From Polynucleobacter sp. AP-Ainpum-60-G11 (GTDB lineage: Bacteria > Pseudomonadota > Gammaproteobacteria > Burkholderiales > Burkholderiaceae), in assembly GCF_018688375.1 (NCBI RefSeq), contig NZ_CP061318.1, forward strand, positions 1,240,001 through 1,304,000: a stretch of DNA of 64,000 nt. The letters run 5' to 3'. A program made the translations under genes and the position numbers. Shown one piece after another: positions 20,044 through 28,072 of this stretch (position 1 is the first letter of the stretch; every line of letters starts with the position of its first letter). The notes under the pieces are model-generated. The model was not told where the DNA came from. It saw nothing but the letters and a program-made list of their open reading frames with translations, and did no database searches.

Positions 20044-20397
20044 TTATAGCCTCCTAGCCTTTCTTTTAGCTGCGGCAGCTTGGAATTTGGCATCCTGGTT
20101 CTGGTTAGCCTTCTTGCGGCGGACAGCCTTGGGGTCTACCAAGAGGGGTGAATACAACTCCAGACGATCACCCTCATAAATTGGGCTATCCCAGTCCTTG
20201 CGCTTGCCAAAGACGCCAAAACAGCCTTTTCTGGCAAGGCTGGGATCTTCCGGGCTTTGGGCTATTCCAGCCTTAATGAGAGCTAGACCCACGGTGGGAG
20301 CCTCGGATGGCAAAAAATGGACTGTGAAGGGGCTCAGTTTGGGCTCACCTAAGCGAGCATCGCAAATCAAAATCTCCATAGACTGACTAGCCATAGA
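20044..20397 (-). CDS. rnfH: RnfH/RatB family protein
   Basis: This small beta-grasp (ubiquitin-like) protein of about 117 residues belongs to the RnfH/RatB (UPF0125) family, with MEILICDAR at the start of the fold, then GIFGKR-like VFGKRKDW and GDRLELYSPLLVDPKAVRR. A basic C-terminal tail follows. The function is uncertain; the gene habitually accompanies ratA. The frame is open to 20463, but that would place 66 bases inside ratA. I chose the ATG at 20397, which overlaps the ratA stop (ATGGCTAG); the ATG at 20382 is an alternative. Confidence 0.82.
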   Translation of the reverse strand, partial: SMASQSMEILICDARLGEPKLSPFTVHFLPSEAPTVGLALIKAGIAQSPEDPSLARKGCFGVFGKRKDWDSPIYEGDRLELYSPLLVDPKAVRRKKANQNQDAKFQAAAAKRKARRL

Positions 20398-20818
20398 GGT
20401 CTTCTGCTCGCTTGACGAAACAATCCACAAAGGTACCTGCAATATGGCCGAATACTGGGCCAATGATCTTATCTAGGATGACATTCTTAAACTCCCAGTG
20501 GAGCTTGAATTCCACCTTACAAGCATCTTCTTTAAGCGGGATGAAGTTCCACTGCCCAGAAAAATGCTTGAATGGGCCATCCACAAAGACCATATCAATG
20601 GTTTCAGGGCGGTGATTGATGTTTCGAGTATGAAAGTATTGATTAATACCCTTGAAGTGGATATTGATTTTGGCATCCAAAACCGTCTCGGTTTGTTCAA
20701 AAATTTCCACCCCGCCACACCACGGCAGGAACTCAGGGTATCGCGCAACGTCGGTGACTAAGCCATACATGCGGTCGGCTGATTGGCCAATTAAAACGGT
20801 CTTGTAGACGTCTGCCAT
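20387..20818 (-). CDS. ratA: RatA/COQ10-type START-domain protein
   Basis: This 143-residue protein has the START/polyketide-cyclase fold of the RatA-Coq10 family, with RMYGLVTDVARYPEFLPWC near the N-terminus, a GPFKHFSGQW strand pair and a final amphipathic helix. In E. coli RatA was reported to block 70S assembly, whereas Coq10 homologues bind ubiquinone, so both roles are possible. It overlaps the rnfH homologue downstream. It diverges from smpB with only 26 bases between start codons, a pairing seen in many proteobacteria. Confidence 0.88.
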   Translation of the reverse strand: MADVYKTVLIGQSADRMYGLVTDVARYPEFLPWCGGVEIFEQTETVLDAKINIHFKGINQYFHTRNINHRPETIDMVFVDGPFKHFSGQWNFIPLKEDACKVEFKLHWEFKNVILDKIIGPVFGHIAGTFVDCFVKRAEDLYG

Positions 20819-20844
20819 AATCGATCTTGAGAAGCTAAATAAAT

Positions 20845-21297
20845 ATGAGTATCGTCGATAACAAAAAAGCCTTCTTCGATTATTTTATCGAGGAACGGTT
20901 CGAGGCAGGGCTGGTTCTGGAGGGCTGGGAAGTAAAAGCCATCCGCGCTGGTCGAGTCCACATTAAAGAAGCGTATGTTGTCATCCGTCGGGCGGAGCTA
21001 TTCCTGATCGGCTGTCACATAACCCCGCTACTTTCAGCTTCAACCCATATCGTTCCAGACAGCACCCGCACCCGCAAGCTTCTGCTCAATGCCATTGAGA
21101 TTAAAAAGCTGATTGGTAAGGTTGAGCAAAAGGGCTACACCCTCGTTCCACTGAACCTGCATTTCTCGAAAGGCAATGTGAAGTGCGAGATTGGGCTTGC
21201 TAGAGGTAAGAAGCAGCATGACAAACGTGCCGCGACCAAAGAACGTGAATGGGAAGTTCAAAAAGGTCGTATTGCTCGAGGCGACCTTAACGCCTAA
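20845..21297 (+). CDS. smpB: SsrA-binding protein
   Basis: This 150-residue RNA-binding protein partners tmRNA in trans-translation and rescues stalled ribosomes. Seen are the opening [20 protein letters not shown], the core [21 protein letters not shown], and the basic C-terminal tail with KKQHDKR followed by the [15 protein letters not shown] helix that mimics the mRNA path. The length is normal. The tmRNA gene itself is not in this window. Only 26 bases separate it from divergent ratA. Confidence 0.96.
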
Positions 21298-21324
21298 TTC
21301 CGGAGTAGGTTTCTTAGTCATTAA

Positions 21325-21361
21325 TGCACCAATAAAGTGCATAGAGCACCAAGCTGCTCCA
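21325..21361. promoter_or_regulatory. Possible NtrC-type site upstream of the Anbu unit
   Basis: TGCACC-N5-AGTGCA at 21325-21341 differs by one base from the NtrC consensus TGCACC-N5-GGTGCA. A poorer copy starts 20 bases later, two helical turns on. It lies about 63-79 bases upstream of the ATP-grasp start. I could not find a sigma-54 -24/-12 promoter downstream, so this is tentative. Confidence 0.3.
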
Positions 21362-21403
21362 TCCGTTAGTTTTTGAAACACCCAAAGGCGTTAGTTTGTA
21401 ACT

Positions 21404-22816
21404 ATGAAATTGCCTTTTGATGAAATGCTCGACGCCAGCGGAAAAGCGCGTCCCCATTACCAAGTTTTCCATAACTGGCTTAAACAGCAGAGTGACACCC
21501 TCATGGGCTTAAAACGCGCTGAGGCTGATCTCATATTCCGGCGAGTGGGGATTACCTTCGCCGTCTACGGAGATGATCTGGGATCTGAGAGAACCATCCC
21601 TTTCGATCAAGTGCCCCGCATCTTTACCGCCAAAGAATGGGAGCAATTAGAGGCTGGCTTACGTCAACGGGTCAAAGCACTCAATCGCTTTATTTACGAC
21701 GTCTATCACGAAGAAGAAATTATCAAGGCCGGGATCATTCCTGCCGAGCAGATTTATAACAACGCGCAATATCGCCCAGAGATGCGCAACGTCAACGTGC
21801 CGCGAGATATCTATGCACAGATTGCCGGGATCGATATTGTGCGTGCAGGCGAAGGTGAGTTCTATGTTCTAGAAGATAACTTGCGTGTTCCATCTGGGGT
21901 TTCTTATATGGTTGAAGACCGCAAGATGATGATGCGACTCTTCCCCGACCTGTTTCAGAAATATCGAGTTGCGCCGGTAGAGCACTATCCGGATTTTTTA
22001 TTGGAGTGCTTAAAGTCAGTCAAACCTGATGATGTCAAAAAACCGAATGTTGTAGTACTGACTCCAGGCATGTACAACTCAGCTTATTTTGAACACAGCT
22101 ACCTCGCTCAACAAATGGGTGTTGAGTTGGTGGAAGGTAAAGATTTGTTTGTGAAGAACGAGCAAGTCTTTATGCGCACCACTCAGGGACCTGAGCGTGT
22201 AGATGTCATTTACCGCCGCGTCGATGATGACTTCTTGGATCCTCTCGCATTCCGCTCTGACTCCACTTTAGGAGTTGCAGGCTTATTGTCCGCACATCGC
22301 GCAGGTAATGTGACTTTAGCCAATGCCATTGGTACCGGTATTGCTGATGACAAATCGATCTACCCTTATGTACCGGACATGATTGAGTTCTATTTGGGTG
22401 AAAAACCCATTCTGAATAATGTGCCGACTTTCCAATGCCGTAAGCCAGATGATCTTGCCTATACCTTGGCTAACTTAGACAAGTTGGTAGTGAAGTTAAC
22501 CCATGGTGCTGGCGGCTATGGCATGTTGGTTGGACCAGCATCCACTAAAGCTGAGATTGAAGAATTCCGCGGTCATCTAATTGCCAATCCAGATAAATAT
22601 ATTGCCCAACCAACACTCGCACTTTCTACCTGCCCAACTTTTGTTGAGTCCGGCGTTGCGCCACGCCACATTGATTTGCGACCATTTGTGTTGTCAGGAA
22701 AAACAATCAAGATGGTTCCAGGCGGCCTTACTCGTGTTGCCCTCAAAGAAGGTTCTTTAGTCGTGAACTCCTCACAGGGTGGTGGCACTAAAGATACCTG
22801 GGTTCTAGAAGAATAA
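21404..22816 (+). CDS. Circularly permuted type 2 ATP-grasp protein
   Basis: This 470-residue protein belongs to the circularly permuted ATP-grasp type 2 family. Landmarks are LEDNLRVPSGVSYMVEDR near residues 156-173, VIYRRVDDDFLDPL at 268-281 and the phosphate-binding loop KLTHGAGGYGMLVGP at 364-378. ATP-grasp enzymes activate a carboxylate as acyl phosphate and join it to an amine, so peptide or amide bond formation is expected, but the substrate is not known. It is the first gene of a four-gene unit with an alpha-E protein, a transglutaminase and Anbu. The same set recurs in many proteobacteria. It starts about 106 bases after smpB, enough for its own promoter. Confidence 0.87.
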   Translation: MKLPFDEMLDASGKARPHYQVFHNWLKQQSDTLMGLKRAEADLIFRRVGITFAVYGDDLGSERTIPFDQVPRIFTAKEWEQLEAGLRQRVKALNRFIYDVYHEEEIIKAGIIPAEQIYNNAQYRPEMRNVNVPRDIYAQIAGIDIVRAGEGEFYVLEDNLRVPSGVSYMVEDRKMMMRLFPDLFQKYRVAPVEHYPDFLLECLKSVKPDDVKKPNVVVLTPGMYNSAYFEHSYLAQQMGVELVEGKDLFVKNEQVFMRTTQGPERVDVIYRRVDDDFLDPLAFRSDSTLGVAGLLSAHRAGNVTLANAIGTGIADDKSIYPYVPDMIEFYLGEKPILNNVPTFQCRKPDDLAYTLANLDKLVVKLTHGAGGYGMLVGPASTKAEIEEFRGHLIANPDKYIAQPTLALSTCPTFVESGVAPRHIDLRPFVLSGKTIKMVPGGLTRVALKEGSLVVNSSQGGGTKDTWVLEE

Positions 22817-22831
22817 AAGGGATAAATCAAT

Positions 22832-23839
22832 ATGTTGAGTCGTACCGCTGATTGCCTGTATTGGATGGCCCGCTATACAGAGCGCGCAGAAAATACTGCC
22901 CGTATGTTGGATGTCAACCACCAAACCTCACTCCTTCCGCAACCTGCAGAGTTTTTAGAGCAAAGCTGGAAGAAGTTACTCACCATCTCCAAGCTTGAAG
23001 AATCTTTCCTCATGAAGCACGATGCAGTCACTCGAGAGAATGTTTTGGATTTCATGATTTATGAAACTAGCAATCCCTCTAGCATCGTGTCCTGCTTATT
23101 TGCAGCCCGCGAGAATGCCCGCGTTATTCGGGGAAAAATTACTTCCGAAGCGTGGGAAACCCAAAACACCACTTGGCTAGAATTGCAACGCATTCTGGAA
23201 GCTCGCAATCAAGCTGACCCCAGCAGATTGCTTGATTGGGTCAAGCATCGCTGCCATCTATTTAGAGGCGTCATGCATGGCACCATGCTCAAGAATGAAG
23301 CCTTCTACTTTATGAATGTCGGCACCCTGCTGGAGAGAGCTGACAACACTGCCCGTATTTTAGAAACTAAATATGAAGGTCAGGCAGCATTGAAGGTATT
23401 GCGTACTGATAAAAAAGGTAAGGCAGTTGATGGCGAGGTTGCGGAAGTGATTGAGGGGGCTGATGGTGATTTCTTTGACTTTTATCACTGGGCCGCTCTA
23501 CTGAGATCAGTCTCCGCTTTTGAGATCTATCGTCAAATCTACTCCGATCAGGTCACACCAAAGCAGGTAGCGCAACTCTTGATATTCAACAAGCAAATGC
23601 CACGCTCACTGGTGTGCTGTGTTAATGAACTGATTCCCTTGATTGCAGAAATGAAAAATCAGGAATCAAAAGAAATTGAGCGCCTGCTTGGAAAGCTCAA
23701 AGCAAATTTAGACTACTCGGATATTGATGAGGTCTTTTCACAAGGCTTAGAGGAATTTATTGAAGAGTTCTTGGAGCGAATCAATCACATTGCTGATGAA
23801 TTCAGTAACGCCTACCTTATTCCATTAGCCGTAGCTTAA
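22832..23839 (+). CDS. Alpha-E domain protein
   Basis: This 335-residue, almost entirely helical protein is of the alpha-E family. The conserved opening MLSRTADCLYWMARYTERAE is present, and the pattern NVGTLLERADNTARILETKY repeats the same type of helix in the middle. A hydrophilic Lys/Gly/Asp/Glu-rich loop lies at about residues 190-212. No catalytic motif is known for this family, and it is always found with ATP-grasp and transglutaminase partners, so a scaffold or substrate-binding role is likely. It starts 15 bases after the ATP-grasp stop. Confidence 0.87.
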   Translation: MLSRTADCLYWMARYTERAENTARMLDVNHQTSLLPQPAEFLEQSWKKLLTISKLEESFLMKHDAVTRENVLDFMIYETSNPSSIVSCLFAARENARVIRGKITSEAWETQNTTWLELQRILEARNQADPSRLLDWVKHRCHLFRGVMHGTMLKNEAFYFMNVGTLLERADNTARILETKYEGQAALKVLRTDKKGKAVDGEVAEVIEGADGDFFDFYHWAALLRSVSAFEIYRQIYSDQVTPKQVAQLLIFNKQMPRSLVCCVNELIPLIAEMKNQESKEIERLLGKLKANLDYSDIDEVFSQGLEEFIEEFLERINHIADEFSNAYLIPLAVA

Positions 23840-23847
23840 AGATCCTT

Positions 23848-24645
23848 ATGCACCTCAAGATTCGTCACCGCACAGAGTACCGCTATGAAACGCCGGTTCG
23901 CTACTCCATCCAGGAGTTACGACTCACACCTCCCGATGTCGCTGGTCAAACTATTGAAAAGTGGAAAGTGAGTACGCCTATTAAGGCAAGCACCTCGCTA
24001 GATGCTTTTGGCAATCTCTATAGTGTTTTTGTGCAAGAGAGTTCATATACCTCAATGATGATTGAGGCTGAGGGTGATGTTCATACTCAAGATGCTTTTG
24101 AGTTTATTGATAACCCCAAGGCCGTCTCCCCCTATCACCTCCTACAGCAAACCAATTTGACTGAGCCCACAGCTGAAATGCTGGAGTACTTTGCAGCCTC
24201 TCTGCCGAAGACAAACTCAGTTGATGAGGTTTTAGAATTGGCTGCCGCTGTGCAGGGAACTATTCTGTATTTCCCGGGACAAACTAATTCAGCAACCACC
24301 GCCGCACAATCTTTTGCCATGAAATCCGGAGTTTGCCAAGATCATGCTCACATCATGCTTGGCCTGTGTCGCGCCTCAGGCATTCCGGCGCGTTACGTCA
24401 GCGGCTATTTCTTTGCCGAAGACTCACCCAATTTGGCAAGCCATGCCTGGATTGATTTTTGTGCAGATATCGATAAAGGGCTTTGGCTTAGCATTGATAT
24501 CACCAATGCCTGTTTTACTGATGCGCGCCACGTTCGCCTAGCGATTGGCAGGGATTACTACTCGGCAGCGCCCGTTAAGGGGGTTCGCTCCGGCGGAGTC
24601 GGTGAAGAGTTAAGCGCCAGTATCTCGATAAGCCAAGTCAATTAA
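23848..24645 (+). CDS. Transglutaminase-like cysteine peptidase
   Basis: This 265-residue protein has an N-terminal bacterial transglutaminase-associated domain (MHLKIRHRTEYRYETPV, then LTPPD) and a transglutaminase-like catalytic domain. The triad is C163 (SGVCQDHAH), H199 (ASHAWIDF) and D217 (SIDITN). Prokaryotic members of this fold are mostly cysteine proteases or amidases rather than cross-linking enzymes. No signal peptide is present, so it acts in the cytoplasm. It begins 8 bases after the alpha-E gene. Together with the ATP-grasp protein it implies making and breaking of an amide bond. Confidence 0.88.
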   Translation: MHLKIRHRTEYRYETPVRYSIQELRLTPPDVAGQTIEKWKVSTPIKASTSLDAFGNLYSVFVQESSYTSMMIEAEGDVHTQDAFEFIDNPKAVSPYHLLQQTNLTEPTAEMLEYFAASLPKTNSVDEVLELAAAVQGTILYFPGQTNSATTAAQSFAMKSGVCQDHAHIMLGLCRASGIPARYVSGYFFAEDSPNLASHAWIDFCADIDKGLWLSIDITNACFTDARHVRLAIGRDYYSAAPVKGVRSGGVGEELSASISISQVN

Positions 24646-24707
24646 ATCAGCCCTCAGCAAATGCCAAGTAAGAGATAATTCAAAGAAATAATTAAAGGGG
24701 CTGCAGG

Positions 24708-25589
24708 ATGACGTATTGCGTTGGGCTTTGCCTAAAGGATGGCTTGGTGTTTTTATCGGATACCCGTACCAATGCGGGTGTTGACCAGATCGGGACCTTC
24801 CGAAAGATGTCCTTATTCCAAAAGGATAAAGATCGGTTTTTTACCCTCATGAGCGCTGGCAATCTTGCCATTACTCAGGCCGTGAAAGAGATTCTGCTGC
24901 AAGGACAACTCCTAAACGGAAAAAATCTGTGGAATGTCGAAAGCACCCATGATGCAGCTGTCGTGATTGGCGATGCCATTAAGCAGGTTTATGACCGAGA
25001 CCACAAAGCACTAGAAAAGGCGGGCATTGATTTCAACTGCAATCTGATCTTTGGTGGGCAGATTAAGGGTGAACGCCCAAGACTCTTTAACATTTACTCA
25101 GCTGGTAACTTTATTGAAGCTACGCCTGAGACTTGTTACTTCCAGATTGGGGAATCTAAATACGGCAAGCCAATCCTAGACAGAGTGATTAGCTTTGATA
25201 CCCCACTCAATTTAGCTACCAAGTGCGCCCTCATTTCGATGGACTCGACACTCAACAGTAATATCTCTGTTGGCCTACCGCTTGACCTGATGGTCTATGA
25301 AAAGAACTCACTGCAAGCAAGTAAGTTAGTGACTATGGATGAATCTAACCCCTACTTCCAAATGATTCACCAACTGTGGGGCGAGAAATTACGCGCTGCA
25401 TTTAATTCCATTGCAGAACCTAGCTGGTCAGGAGCAACGCCATCACGATCGATTGCATCCCCTGCCAAGAAGATGGGTGCGGTGCCCATCCATCGCAATA
25501 GCAAGGTCGTAAAAGAGGTGCTTGCACCAGTTAAGGCGACGGCTAAAGCTAGTCCAAAGAAGAAAGTGGCTGCAAAAACTAAGCGTTAA
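24708..25589 (+). CDS. anbu: Anbu proteasome-like Ntn hydrolase with basic tail
   Basis: This 293-residue protein is the ancestral beta subunit homologue (Anbu) of the 20S proteasome family. After removal of Met1 the N-terminal residue is threonine, the expected nucleophile. D18 and K33 (numbered with Met) match the conserved proteasome catalytic residues. The fold core ends near residue 235, which is about the usual full length. Residues 241-293 add a Ser/Ala/Pro/Lys-rich tail ending in KKKVAAKTKR, not needed for the fold. Anbu forms open-ring assemblies in studied species, and its substrate is unknown. It sits 62 bases after the transglutaminase gene and is followed by a strong terminator. 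Confidence 0.88.
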   Translation: MTYCVGLCLKDGLVFLSDTRTNAGVDQIGTFRKMSLFQKDKDRFFTLMSAGNLAITQAVKEILLQGQLLNGKNLWNVESTHDAAVVIGDAIKQVYDRDHKALEKAGIDFNCNLIFGGQIKGERPRLFNIYSAGNFIEATPETCYFQIGESKYGKPILDRVISFDTPLNLATKCALISMDSTLNSNISVGLPLDLMVYEKNSLQASKLVTMDESNPYFQMIHQLWGEKLRAAFNSIAEPSWSGATPSRSIASPAKKMGAVPIHRNSKVVKEVLAPVKATAKASPKKKVAAKTKR

Positions 25590-25610
25590 TTGAAGTGGTG
25601 ATCAAAAGAT

Positions 25611-25639
25611 AAAAGGCCTAGATTTCTCTAGGCCTTTTT
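25611..25639. terminator. Bidirectional intrinsic terminator between Anbu and ppsA
   Basis: A perfect 12-base-pair stem (AAAAGGCCTAGA pairing with TCTAGGCCTTTT) encloses a four-base loop and is followed by T. The A and T ends give U-tracts in both directions, so it can end both the plus-strand Anbu transcript and the minus-strand ppsA transcript. Confidence 0.9.
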
Positions 25640-25669
25640 CACATCTCACTAGTGATTAGCGGGGTCAGC

Positions 25670-28072
25670 TTAGGCTTCTTTCTTGCCCAACATTTCCCAT
25701 GTAGCAACTACGCTATCTGGGTTGAGAGAGATAGAGGTAATGCCCTTGGCAACTAACCAACGCGCAAAGTCTGGGTGGTCTGAAGGGCCTTGACCGCAAA
25801 TACCAACATATTTGTTTTGCTTACGGCAAGCCTCAATGGAACGAGCAATCATGAATTCCACCGCAGGATCGCGCTCATCAAAATCAATTGCCAGCAATTC
25901 CATACCGGAGTCACGATCTAGGCCCAGCGTTAACTGAGTCATATCGTTTGAACCGATTGAGAATCCATCGAAATGCTCGAGGAATTGATCGGCCAAAATG
26001 GCATTGGAAGGAATCTCGCACATCATGATGAGACGCAAGCCGTTGACGCCACGCTTGAGACCAAACTTCGCCATCATGTCGATCACGCGTTCGGCCTGCT
26101 TAATAGTACGAACAAACGGCACCATAATCTCGACGTTATCTAGACCCATGTCTTCACGAACACGCTTCATTGCAGCGCACTCTAAGGCAAAGGCTTCGCC
26201 GAAATCAGCTGATACATAACGGGATGCGCCACGGAAACCGAGCATTGGATTCTCTTCATCCGGCTCATAGCGTGAACCGCCGATGAGCTTCTTGTACTCG
26301 TTTGACTTAAAGTCAGATAAACGAACGATCACGGGCTTTGGATAGAAAGCAGCAGCAATCGTTGCGACACCCTCAACCAATTTATCTTCATAGAACTGAC
26401 GTGGGCTTGCATAACCGCGAGCAACACTCTCTACAGCGCGCTTGAGATCAGAATCAATATTTGGGTATTCCAACACGGCACGTGGGTGCACACCAATATA
26501 GTTATTAATGATGAACTCGAGACGGGCTAAACCAACACCCGCATTTGGAATTTGGCAGAAATCAAAGGCCAACTGAGGATTACCAATGTTCATGGTGATC
26601 TTGACTGGGATCTCTGGCAATACGCCACGAGAAACCTCTGTTACTTCAGTTTCAATCAAGCCATCATAAATATGACCTTCGTCGCCTTCAGCACAAGAAA
26701 CTGTCACCATCATGCCGTCTTGCAAATGTTCAGTTGCATCACCGCAACCTACTACCGCAGGAACACCTAACTCACGAGCAATAATCGCTGCGTGACAAGT
26801 ACGGCCACCACGATTAGTCACAATCGCGGAAGCGCGCTTCATTACTGGCTCCCAGTTAGGATCGGTCATATCAGCAACCAATACATCACCTGGCTGAACA
26901 CGATCCATCTCGCTTGGATCACGAATCACACGAACCGGGCCTGCACCAATCTTTTGACCAATTGCTCGACCTTTAGCCAGAACTTTAGATGTGCCCTTCA
27001 GCTTGTAACGCATCTCTACTTGTCCAGCTGCTTGACTCTTCACTGTCTCTGGACGCGCTTGCAAAATATAGATACGGCCATCTTGACCATCCTTGCCCCA
27101 CTCGATATCCATTGGACGACCGTAGTGCTTCTCAATAATCACGGCATATTTAGCTAGCTCAGTAATGTCAGCATCTTCCAAGGAAAAACGATTGCGCTTT
27201 TCTGGAGCCACATCCACAGTCATCACCTTCTCAGCAGAACCAGCTGGGGCGAATTGCATCTGAATCAACTTGGAACCCAGGGAGCGGCGAATAATCGCCT
27301 TCTTATCTTGTGCCAAAGTCGTTTTGAATACATAAAACTCATCCGGGTTTACTGCACCCTGCACTACTGTCTCACCCAAGCCATAGCTAGAAGTGATGAA
27401 TACGACATCTTCAAAGCCAGATTCAGTGTCTAAAGTAAACATCACACCAGCCGCACCCAGGTCAGAGCGAACCATGCGCTGAATACCAGCAGATAGGGCT
27501 ACTTCAGCATGAGCAAAGCCTTTGTGAACGCGGTAAGAAATCGCACGATCGTTATACAAGGATGCAAACACTTCACGAATCTTCTTCAGAACATCATCAA
27601 TACCCTCAACGTTCAAGAAAGTTTCTTGTTGTCCAGCAAATGAAGCATCAGGTAAATCTTCAGCGGTTGCAGAGGATCGCACTGCAAAAGAGCCTTTGCC
27701 AGAATCATCTAATTTTTTAAATGCTGTACGAATCTCTTCATCCAGACGCGCTTGAAATGGCGCTGTTTCAATCCAGCCACGAATTTCTTTACCAGCTTCA
27801 GCTAGAGCACGTACATCATCAATGTTGAGATTTTCCAAACGCTTCTGAATGCGCTCAGTCAAATTGTTGTGCTCAAGAAAATCGCGGAACGCCAATGAAG
27901 TAGTTGCAAATCCAGTCGGTACGCGCACACCCGTGGAAGACAACTGAGAAATCATTTCACCAAGTGAGGCATTTTTACCGCCGACTGACTCAACATCAGT
28001 CATTCGGAGCTGCTCAAAAGGCAAAACATAGGCATTTGCTACATCGCTACTTTGTTGCTGTTGGTTGGACAT
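25670..28072 (-). CDS. ppsA: Phosphoenolpyruvate synthase
   Basis: This 800-residue enzyme makes phosphoenolpyruvate from pyruvate, ATP and water for gluconeogenesis. The order is an N-terminal nucleotide-binding domain ([30 protein letters not shown]), a central phosphohistidine domain with GGRTCHAAI where H427 carries the phosphate, and a C-terminal PEP-utilising barrel with [17 protein letters not shown] and the late catalytic cysteine in [10 protein letters not shown]425, two residues before the histidine, is the site expected to be phosphorylated by the regulator encoded divergently at 28179. The length agrees with the E. coli enzyme (792). Confidence 0.97.

Follow-up and report, generated by a model that had tools for sequence, protein, structure and literature searches.

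The DNA analyzed here (the window) is a stretch of 64,000 nucleotides from Polynucleobacter sp. AP-Ainpum-60-G11, the genome of which is a single contig of 1,906,556 bases. The window contains an Anbu operon, in which four intact plus-strand open reading frames (ORFs), separated by gaps of 15, 8 and 62 bp and standing in the order and orientation known for such operons, encode a circularly permuted ATP-grasp protein, an alpha-E protein, a transglutaminase-like protein (TG) and Anbu. The four-gene association has been published (PMC5666114 and PMC6376114, citing Valas and Bourne 2008 and Iyer 2009), and Anbu was named in 2008 according to PMC5666114. As judged by sequence, the window operon belongs to this family. 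The features of the locus are as follows.

21324-21342, strand not assigned: NtrC-type operator ATGCAC-N7-GTGCAT, 78 bp before the ATP-grasp start; its core, 21326-21340, matches GCACY-N5-RGTGC at 10/10
21346-21360, plus strand: second, weaker half-site GCACCAAGCTGC, 8/10, 20 bp downstream of the operator, recurring in the majority of the genus regions shown
21404-22816, plus strand: circularly permuted ATP-grasp protein, 470 residues (ORF; CP_ATPgrasp_2; match to PDB 3n6x)
22832-23839, plus strand: alpha-E protein, 335 residues (ORF; Pfam)
22832-23257, plus strand: alpha-E repeat 1, residues 1-142 in the widest alignment, 1-111 at the default setting (hhalign of halves)
23285-23785, plus strand: alpha-E repeat 2, residues 152-318 in the widest alignment, 152-286 at the default setting (hhalign of halves)
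23848-24645, plus strand: TG, 265 residues, with C163/H199/D217 (ORF; Pfam; residues)
24708-25589, plus strand: Anbu, 293 residues, mature T1/D17/K32 (ORF; solved Anbu chains; residues)
25428-25586, plus strand: Lys/Ala-rich C-terminal tail of Anbu, 53 residues, 14 K+R and 1 D+E
25611-25638, reported on the minus strand: terminator-like hairpin of 12 pairs between Anbu and the convergent ppsA, a consensus match only

The initial annotation, made from the letters of the DNA, had named the four families and the short gaps correctly. ATP-grasp matches Pfam CP_ATPgrasp_2 (E = 1e-166), alpha-E, of which the genome has a single copy, matches Alpha-E (1e-97), and TG matches Bact_transglu_N (4e-19) and Transglut_core (1e-17). 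Anbu falls 0.2 bits short of the Pfam proteasome cut-off and aligns over 230-240 residues with five distinct solved Anbu sequences, best with 5loy (E = 9e-84); its closest protein matches, as far as these carry names, come from Polynucleobacter. The active-site residues are kept, as had also been claimed: the TG triad is Cys163-His199-Asp217, in the same numbering, and Anbu has T1, D17 and K32, counted after Met removal, the residues named N-terminal Thr, Asp17 and Lys32(33) in PMC6376114. Family alignments rich in Polynucleobacter (117 rows for ATP-grasp, 118 for alpha-E, 82 for TG and 127 for Anbu) have, respectively, 159, 37, 30 and 47 columns that are at least 95% identical, and the window proteins retain all of them; for ATP-grasp, conservation was judged by these columns, without assigning individual catalytic residues. 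No signal peptide was seen at any of the four N-termini by hydropathy, the only criterion used (the first strand of Anbu reaches up to 1.7 over 12 residues; the other three stay below 0.5), which agrees with the cytoplasmic location proposed earlier.

A full-length relative of the ATP-grasp protein among solved structures is 3n6x, a putative glutathionylspermidine synthase (E = 6e-216), the name of the entry being itself putative. Known Anbu forms a dodecameric open ring via its C-terminal helix, and the window protein matches the solved chains, in sequence, to about residue 240. The Lys/Ala-rich tail starts past the last helix; tails of a similar kind are found across the main Polynucleobacter group, whereas in the related Burkholderiales whose Anbu is tailed it is Ala, Pro and Gln that abound there.

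Alpha-E is, on the evidence of profile comparison, a tandem duplication. Its halves align with each other at a hhalign E of 2.9e-18 and a probability of 99% (5.7e-18 with disjoint rows), and in 20 column permutations the E-value never fell below 0.049; the same comparison of halves gave 0.4 for ATP-grasp, 0.014 for Anbu and 0.6 for TG. Single halves from different species are detected by blastp down to 2e-19 over 139 residues, and an E-R-A-[ED]-N-T-A-R helix is present in each repeat. The literature passages on the family that we searched, which do not cover Iyer 2009, make no mention of a duplication. A relative of alpha-E was sought among solved structures by single sequence and by profile, and none was credible.

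The NtrC-type operator and a probable loss of sigma-54 control

Regulation of the operon was missed by the initial annotation. The pattern GCACYN5RGTGC, which we take to be the NtrC consensus, occurs once in the window, upstream of the operon at 21326-21340; 29 of 100 shuffled windows also contain a match, so that the window alone proves nothing about the site. The whole genome has eight such places, compared with one for the reversed pattern used as a control. Four lie within ORFs. Of the remaining four, two stand upstream of glnA, one precedes an ammonium-transporter ORF (PF00909, 5e-91) by 36 bp, and the last is that of the Anbu operon. Promoters were scored with the sigma-54 consensus under our own weights, the maximum being 15.5. 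The best -24/-12 element within 250 bp before the window operon scores 10.0, and the operon is therefore not a classical sigma-54 member. The upstream region of glnA in the same genome (locus L064) has its tandem NtrC sites 52 bp apart, together with a degraded sigma-54-like element (12.5).

The comparisons below draw on samples of 81 genomes from the genus, 150 from the order and 200 from the phylum, some of the latter two being incomplete; shuffle and Fisher figures given below treat genomes as independent, ignoring relatedness. The genus provided 61 upstream regions, taken from 60 loci plus the window and representing 60 genomes. In 54 of these regions a site stands 77-81 bp ahead of the ATP-grasp start (10/10 in 44, 9/10 in 10), and for 41 of the 54 no rpoN was found in the genome concerned. 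The regions without a site are those of genomes G172 (cut by the contig end), G164, G176, G154, G204, G155 and G179. C2-A3-C4 and G12-T13-G14-C15 are invariant in the 51 distinct versions of the site and the spacer bases vary, the invariance of the arms coming partly from selection because sites were chosen at 9/10 or better. A second cluster, present in part of the genus, combines the same ATP-grasp and alpha-E families as a fusion, and differs from the window operon in having no Anbu and a large TG of about 1100 residues; the fusion was not found in the window genome. In 17 of 20 cases this Anbu-less cluster is preceded by such a site, at -65 to -69 (one at 10/10, sixteen at 9/10; G181 scores 8, and G190 and G176 have none), which points to nitrogen-type control here as well.

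Relatives in the order often appear to carry sigma-54 promoters in place of the genus-type arrangement. In a first order set of 53 ATP-grasp upstream regions, from 52 of 73 loci, sigma-54 scores of at least 14 occur in 30 (shuffle mean 0.47) and perfect NtrC sites in 7 (shuffle mean 0.17). A second set, mostly Burkholderiales, of 80 loci, 70 of them usable, was compared with 1058 upstream regions of other genes from the same loci; scores of at least 13 were found in 44 (4.2 expected), of at least 14 in 21 (0.5 expected), and perfect NtrC sites in 11 (0.7 expected). The two sets may share species.

rpoN is present in 32 of the 81 genus genomes, the window genome included, and was not found in 49. 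NtrC exceeds the family cut-off in 76 of the 81; the protein of the window genome is encoded on the minus strand at G000:C1:1059484-1060911. The sequence of NtrC was read in 47 genomes (24 of the 32 with rpoN, 23 of the 49 without). Forty-six whole NtrC ORFs were found through the motif in the recognition helix, only the broken ORF of G171 being missed that way, and all 46 share both the phospho-acceptor Asp and one unvarying helix, GIGRNTITRKL; NtrC is present with its DNA-reading helix intact. (G171 has one stop within ntrC, locus L365, and one within the operon TG, locus L133.) Nine of the 47 proteins, all from genomes with rpoN, have an intact sigma-54 contact loop (GAFTGA or GSFTGA); the loop is altered in the other 38, from 15 genomes with rpoN and all 23 without (Fisher p 0.0016). 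Altered loops read GAFPGA, GAFQGA, GAFANA, GAVPNA and AQFGNT, and in 11 of the 37 whole ORFs with a changed loop the Asp of what we take to be the Walker B motif is Gly. With 38 of 47 loops altered, control seems to have been rewired, and the persistence of the operator suggests that nitrogen control outlasted a switch to another type of promoter. Three genomes illustrate the range: G179 combines an intact loop with a sigma-54 promoter that scores 15.0 and lies 60 bp ahead of ATP-grasp; G210 also has an intact loop, and its best sigma-54 score is 10.5, but it has a 9/10 NtrC site; in the window genome, rpoN is present, the loop reads GAFPGA, and the operon has no sigma-54 promoter. The role of the loop is described in PMC10274813, as are the GAFTGA-less NtrC proteins of Caulobacter and Rhodobacter capsulatus, which likewise control nitrogen genes without it; there the loop is deleted, whereas in Polynucleobacter, a betaproteobacterial genus, it is substituted.

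Nitrogen control of Anbu operons is not new as such, because expression studies in other bacteria show it. The operons of Pseudomonas putida (PP_2685-2688), Pseudomonas aeruginosa and Yersinia bercovieri contain the same four families as the window. That of P. putida is induced by nitrogen limitation and assigned to NtrB/NtrC, with PP_2686-2688 up 11-15x in the wild type (PMC7801951, Table 2); another nitrogen-limitation study gives 11.1x for PP_2685 and 6.6-7.1x for PP_2686/7 (PMC3325844), and growth on nitrate versus ammonium gives log2 changes of 4.44 for PP_2685 and 3.99 for PP_2688 (PMC8050072). In an ntrC mutant of Burkholderia cenocepacia, expression of I35_5080-83, tabulated as ATP-grasp, alpha-E, TG and large TG, is down 6-9x (PMC5491218). 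A 2025 survey of sigma-54 includes a proteasome-type protease COG (PMC12316311), and in marine metagenomes DUF403/404/407 are associated with urea domains (PMC3597751). Unlike these P. putida-type operons, the window operon has no sigma-54 promoter, its Anbu has a Lys-rich tail, and NtrC in the genus mostly has an altered loop. Our literature search found no paper joining Polynucleobacter with Anbu; the one match to Polynucleobacter and NtrC concerns, judging by its entry, a Zwartia species.

Core and accessory genes

The initial annotation had proposed a survey of whether the four genes are always kept or lost together, and the answer is divided. Within the genus, ATP-grasp and alpha-E occur in the identical 61 genomes and are both absent from the identical 20 (5 of which are less than 90% complete), and in G165, a genome of 1.55 Mb, all four operon genes are broken with the operator intact (locus L163), a case of an entire operon decaying. 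Anbu is present in 59 genus genomes; in G169 the contig ends before it. Separate losses are also seen: G164 keeps ATP-grasp and alpha-E and lacks the operon TG and Anbu, and G154, G155, G176 and G204 keep Anbu and lack the operon TG, weaker TG matches being found elsewhere in all five genomes. G210 has two very similar operon copies about 22 kb apart (loci L150 and L151).

In the order sample, Anbu is found in 76 genomes and alpha-E in 81 (both in 75, neither in 68). Anbu occurs without alpha-E once (G084), and alpha-E occurs without Anbu in 6 of the 81 (G003, G067, G103, G110, which has a partial match, G111 and G125). The phylum sample has Anbu in 69 genomes and alpha-E in 112 (both in 68, neither in 87), with Anbu lacking alpha-E once (G319) and alpha-E lacking Anbu in 44 of the 112. 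Among 73 order loci fetched around Anbu, the classical order, the order ATP-grasp-alpha-E-Anbu-large TG, and divergent pairs all occur, and in 11 no partner lies within 6.5 kb; the classical four-gene order is common in these loci and in the second set, as is the fused ATP-grasp~alpha-E form in the order-level samples. From the joint presence and absence of ATP-grasp and alpha-E and the separate losses of TG and Anbu, we are rather confident that the former pair is the core of the system and that the latter two are optional, Anbu being seldom found without alpha-E.

Directly upstream of the operon, at 20044-21297, lie genes for the ubiquitin-fold RnfH (20044-20463, minus strand), a RatA-like protein and SmpB. 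A link to SmpB or RnfH was considered and rejected: smpB adjoins the operon in most genus regions and in none of the 73 order-level ones, and its adjacency is therefore taken as shared gene order only. No conserved extra partner was found among the 73 order loci, the widest neighbor family occurring in 5; a protein of about 420 residues with no Pfam match is near the Anbu cluster in 5 (L183, L221, L226, L236 and L238), and a RelA/SpoT family gene is near the operon in 5 others (L203, L206, L210, L214 and L220; Pfam was run on L206).

A proposed nitrogen-limitation module and its rivals

We lean, by a modest degree, towards the view that the window holds an Anbu operon like those already described, and that it serves under NtrC as an amide-bond module of nitrogen limitation, with ATP-grasp and alpha-E as its core. 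In such a scheme, nitrogen shortage would lead NtrC to act on the operon through its two adjacent sites, reaching the promoter in Polynucleobacter without sigma-54. ATP-grasp and its two-repeat alpha-E partner subunit would activate a carboxylate with ATP and form an amide bond on a small peptide or a protein side chain; TG and Anbu would then trim, transfer or release the amide. The paired acidic/Arg helices of alpha-E would suit a ligase subunit with a holding or activating role. The parts of this scheme differ in strength. Nitrogen control of the window operon is highly probable, in a judgement revised slightly downwards because action of NtrC at the window promoter is read from sites alone. 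The chemistry, with ligation by the core pair and TG and Anbu acting later, is tentative, and we would sooner doubt it than assert it.

Several observations weigh against this view. NtrC control in Polynucleobacter is itself read from predicted sites; the site at the transporter gene lies upstream of a divergent ORF of 120 residues (Rap1a family) as well, and no sigma-70 consensus promoter was found on the plus strand at 21200-25800, so that the effect of NtrC may be activation or repression. In the second set, no region of 70 reaches a sigma-54 score of 15 (0.1 expected). The rpoN mutant of P. putida keeps a 14-20x induction of PP_2686-2688, sigma-54 therefore not being strictly needed there, and Anbu itself (PP_2685) is just 1.1x up in the wild type of that study (PMC7801951, Table 2). 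As for the chemistry, ATP-grasp frees phosphate from ATP, which speaks for the proposal, and Anbu does not stimulate this (PMC6376114), but the release may be plain ATP hydrolysis; binding of inhibitors by Anbu is taken to make peptide synthesis less likely, degradation being preferred (PMC5666114, section 14); and no conserved neighbor among the 73 order loci indicates a substrate.

Degradation is the essence of one rival explanation, in which Anbu is an uncapped self-compartmentalizing protease that recycles protein in bulk during nitrogen shortage, the other three products feeding or tagging its substrates. Nitrogen control and the 11.1-fold rise of PP_2685 fit this, and in P. aeruginosa Anbu the inhibitors epoxomicin and MG132 are bound at Thr1, the authors favoring degradation (PMC5666114, sections 13-14). 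However, the same paper states that standard substrates are not cleaved, and PMC6376114 reports no activity of the Yersinia, Hyphomicrobium and Pseudomonas proteins on three AMC substrates and no specific complex of Anbu with its operon partners. Anbu is, moreover, dispensable, alpha-E occurring without it in 44 of 112 phylum and 6 of 81 order genomes, and the Anbu-less clusters retain a similar nitrogen site; we regard bulk proteolysis as unlikely. The same biochemical results run partly counter to the initial annotation, which had asked for peptidase activity and a four-product complex and had pictured one cytoplasmic machine in which all four proteins are required for a cycle of making and breaking an amide bond. 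The common four-gene order, and an operon that is wholly missing in 20 of 81 genus genomes and broken all at once in G165, would agree with such a machine, but TG, or TG and Anbu, are absent separately within the genus, the loci differ in gene order and in the type of TG, and Anbu stands without a near partner in 11 of 73 order loci. A single obligate cycle is thus not supported as stated, and such a machine seems to us less likely still. That the four-gene association is known elsewhere and its substrate unsettled agrees with the published literature, and the earlier interpretation as a whole is partly supported.

The operator might also belong to another regulator with a similar palindrome, the nitrogen link in the genus being mere resemblance. 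The genus operator is a predicted site, and for 41 of 54 sites the genome yielded no rpoN; yet NtrC is present in 76 of 81 genomes with an identical recognition helix in 46 whole ORFs, and like sites precede glnA, which leads into ntrBC. This is the most improbable of the alternatives. Going further than the nitrogen-limitation module outlined above, Polynucleobacter NtrC could be a former sigma-54 activator that is now a sigma-54-independent DNA-binding switch, its operators kept at glnA, the ammonium transporter and both ATP-grasp/alpha-E clusters. The amide-bond system would then count among a handful of core outputs in a pared-down nitrogen regulon, with the same standing as glutamine synthetase, its product a nitrogen-storing or nitrogen-sparing amide, and Anbu a specific amidase or transferase rather than a general protease; we consider this extended version speculative and, taken whole, rather unlikely.

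What is new is the perfect NtrC-type site 78 bp before the operon, common to glnA and the ammonium-transporter gene. The operator suggests that the function of Anbu should be sought in nitrogen limitation, and the core to purify is ATP-grasp with alpha-E, rather than Anbu. The genus offers a natural series of genomes, with all four genes, with no TG, or with neither TG nor Anbu, and with or without rpoN. Nitrogen control has apparently survived a change of promoter type, and the alteration of the NtrC loop by substitution across the genus is of interest for how regulators get rewired.

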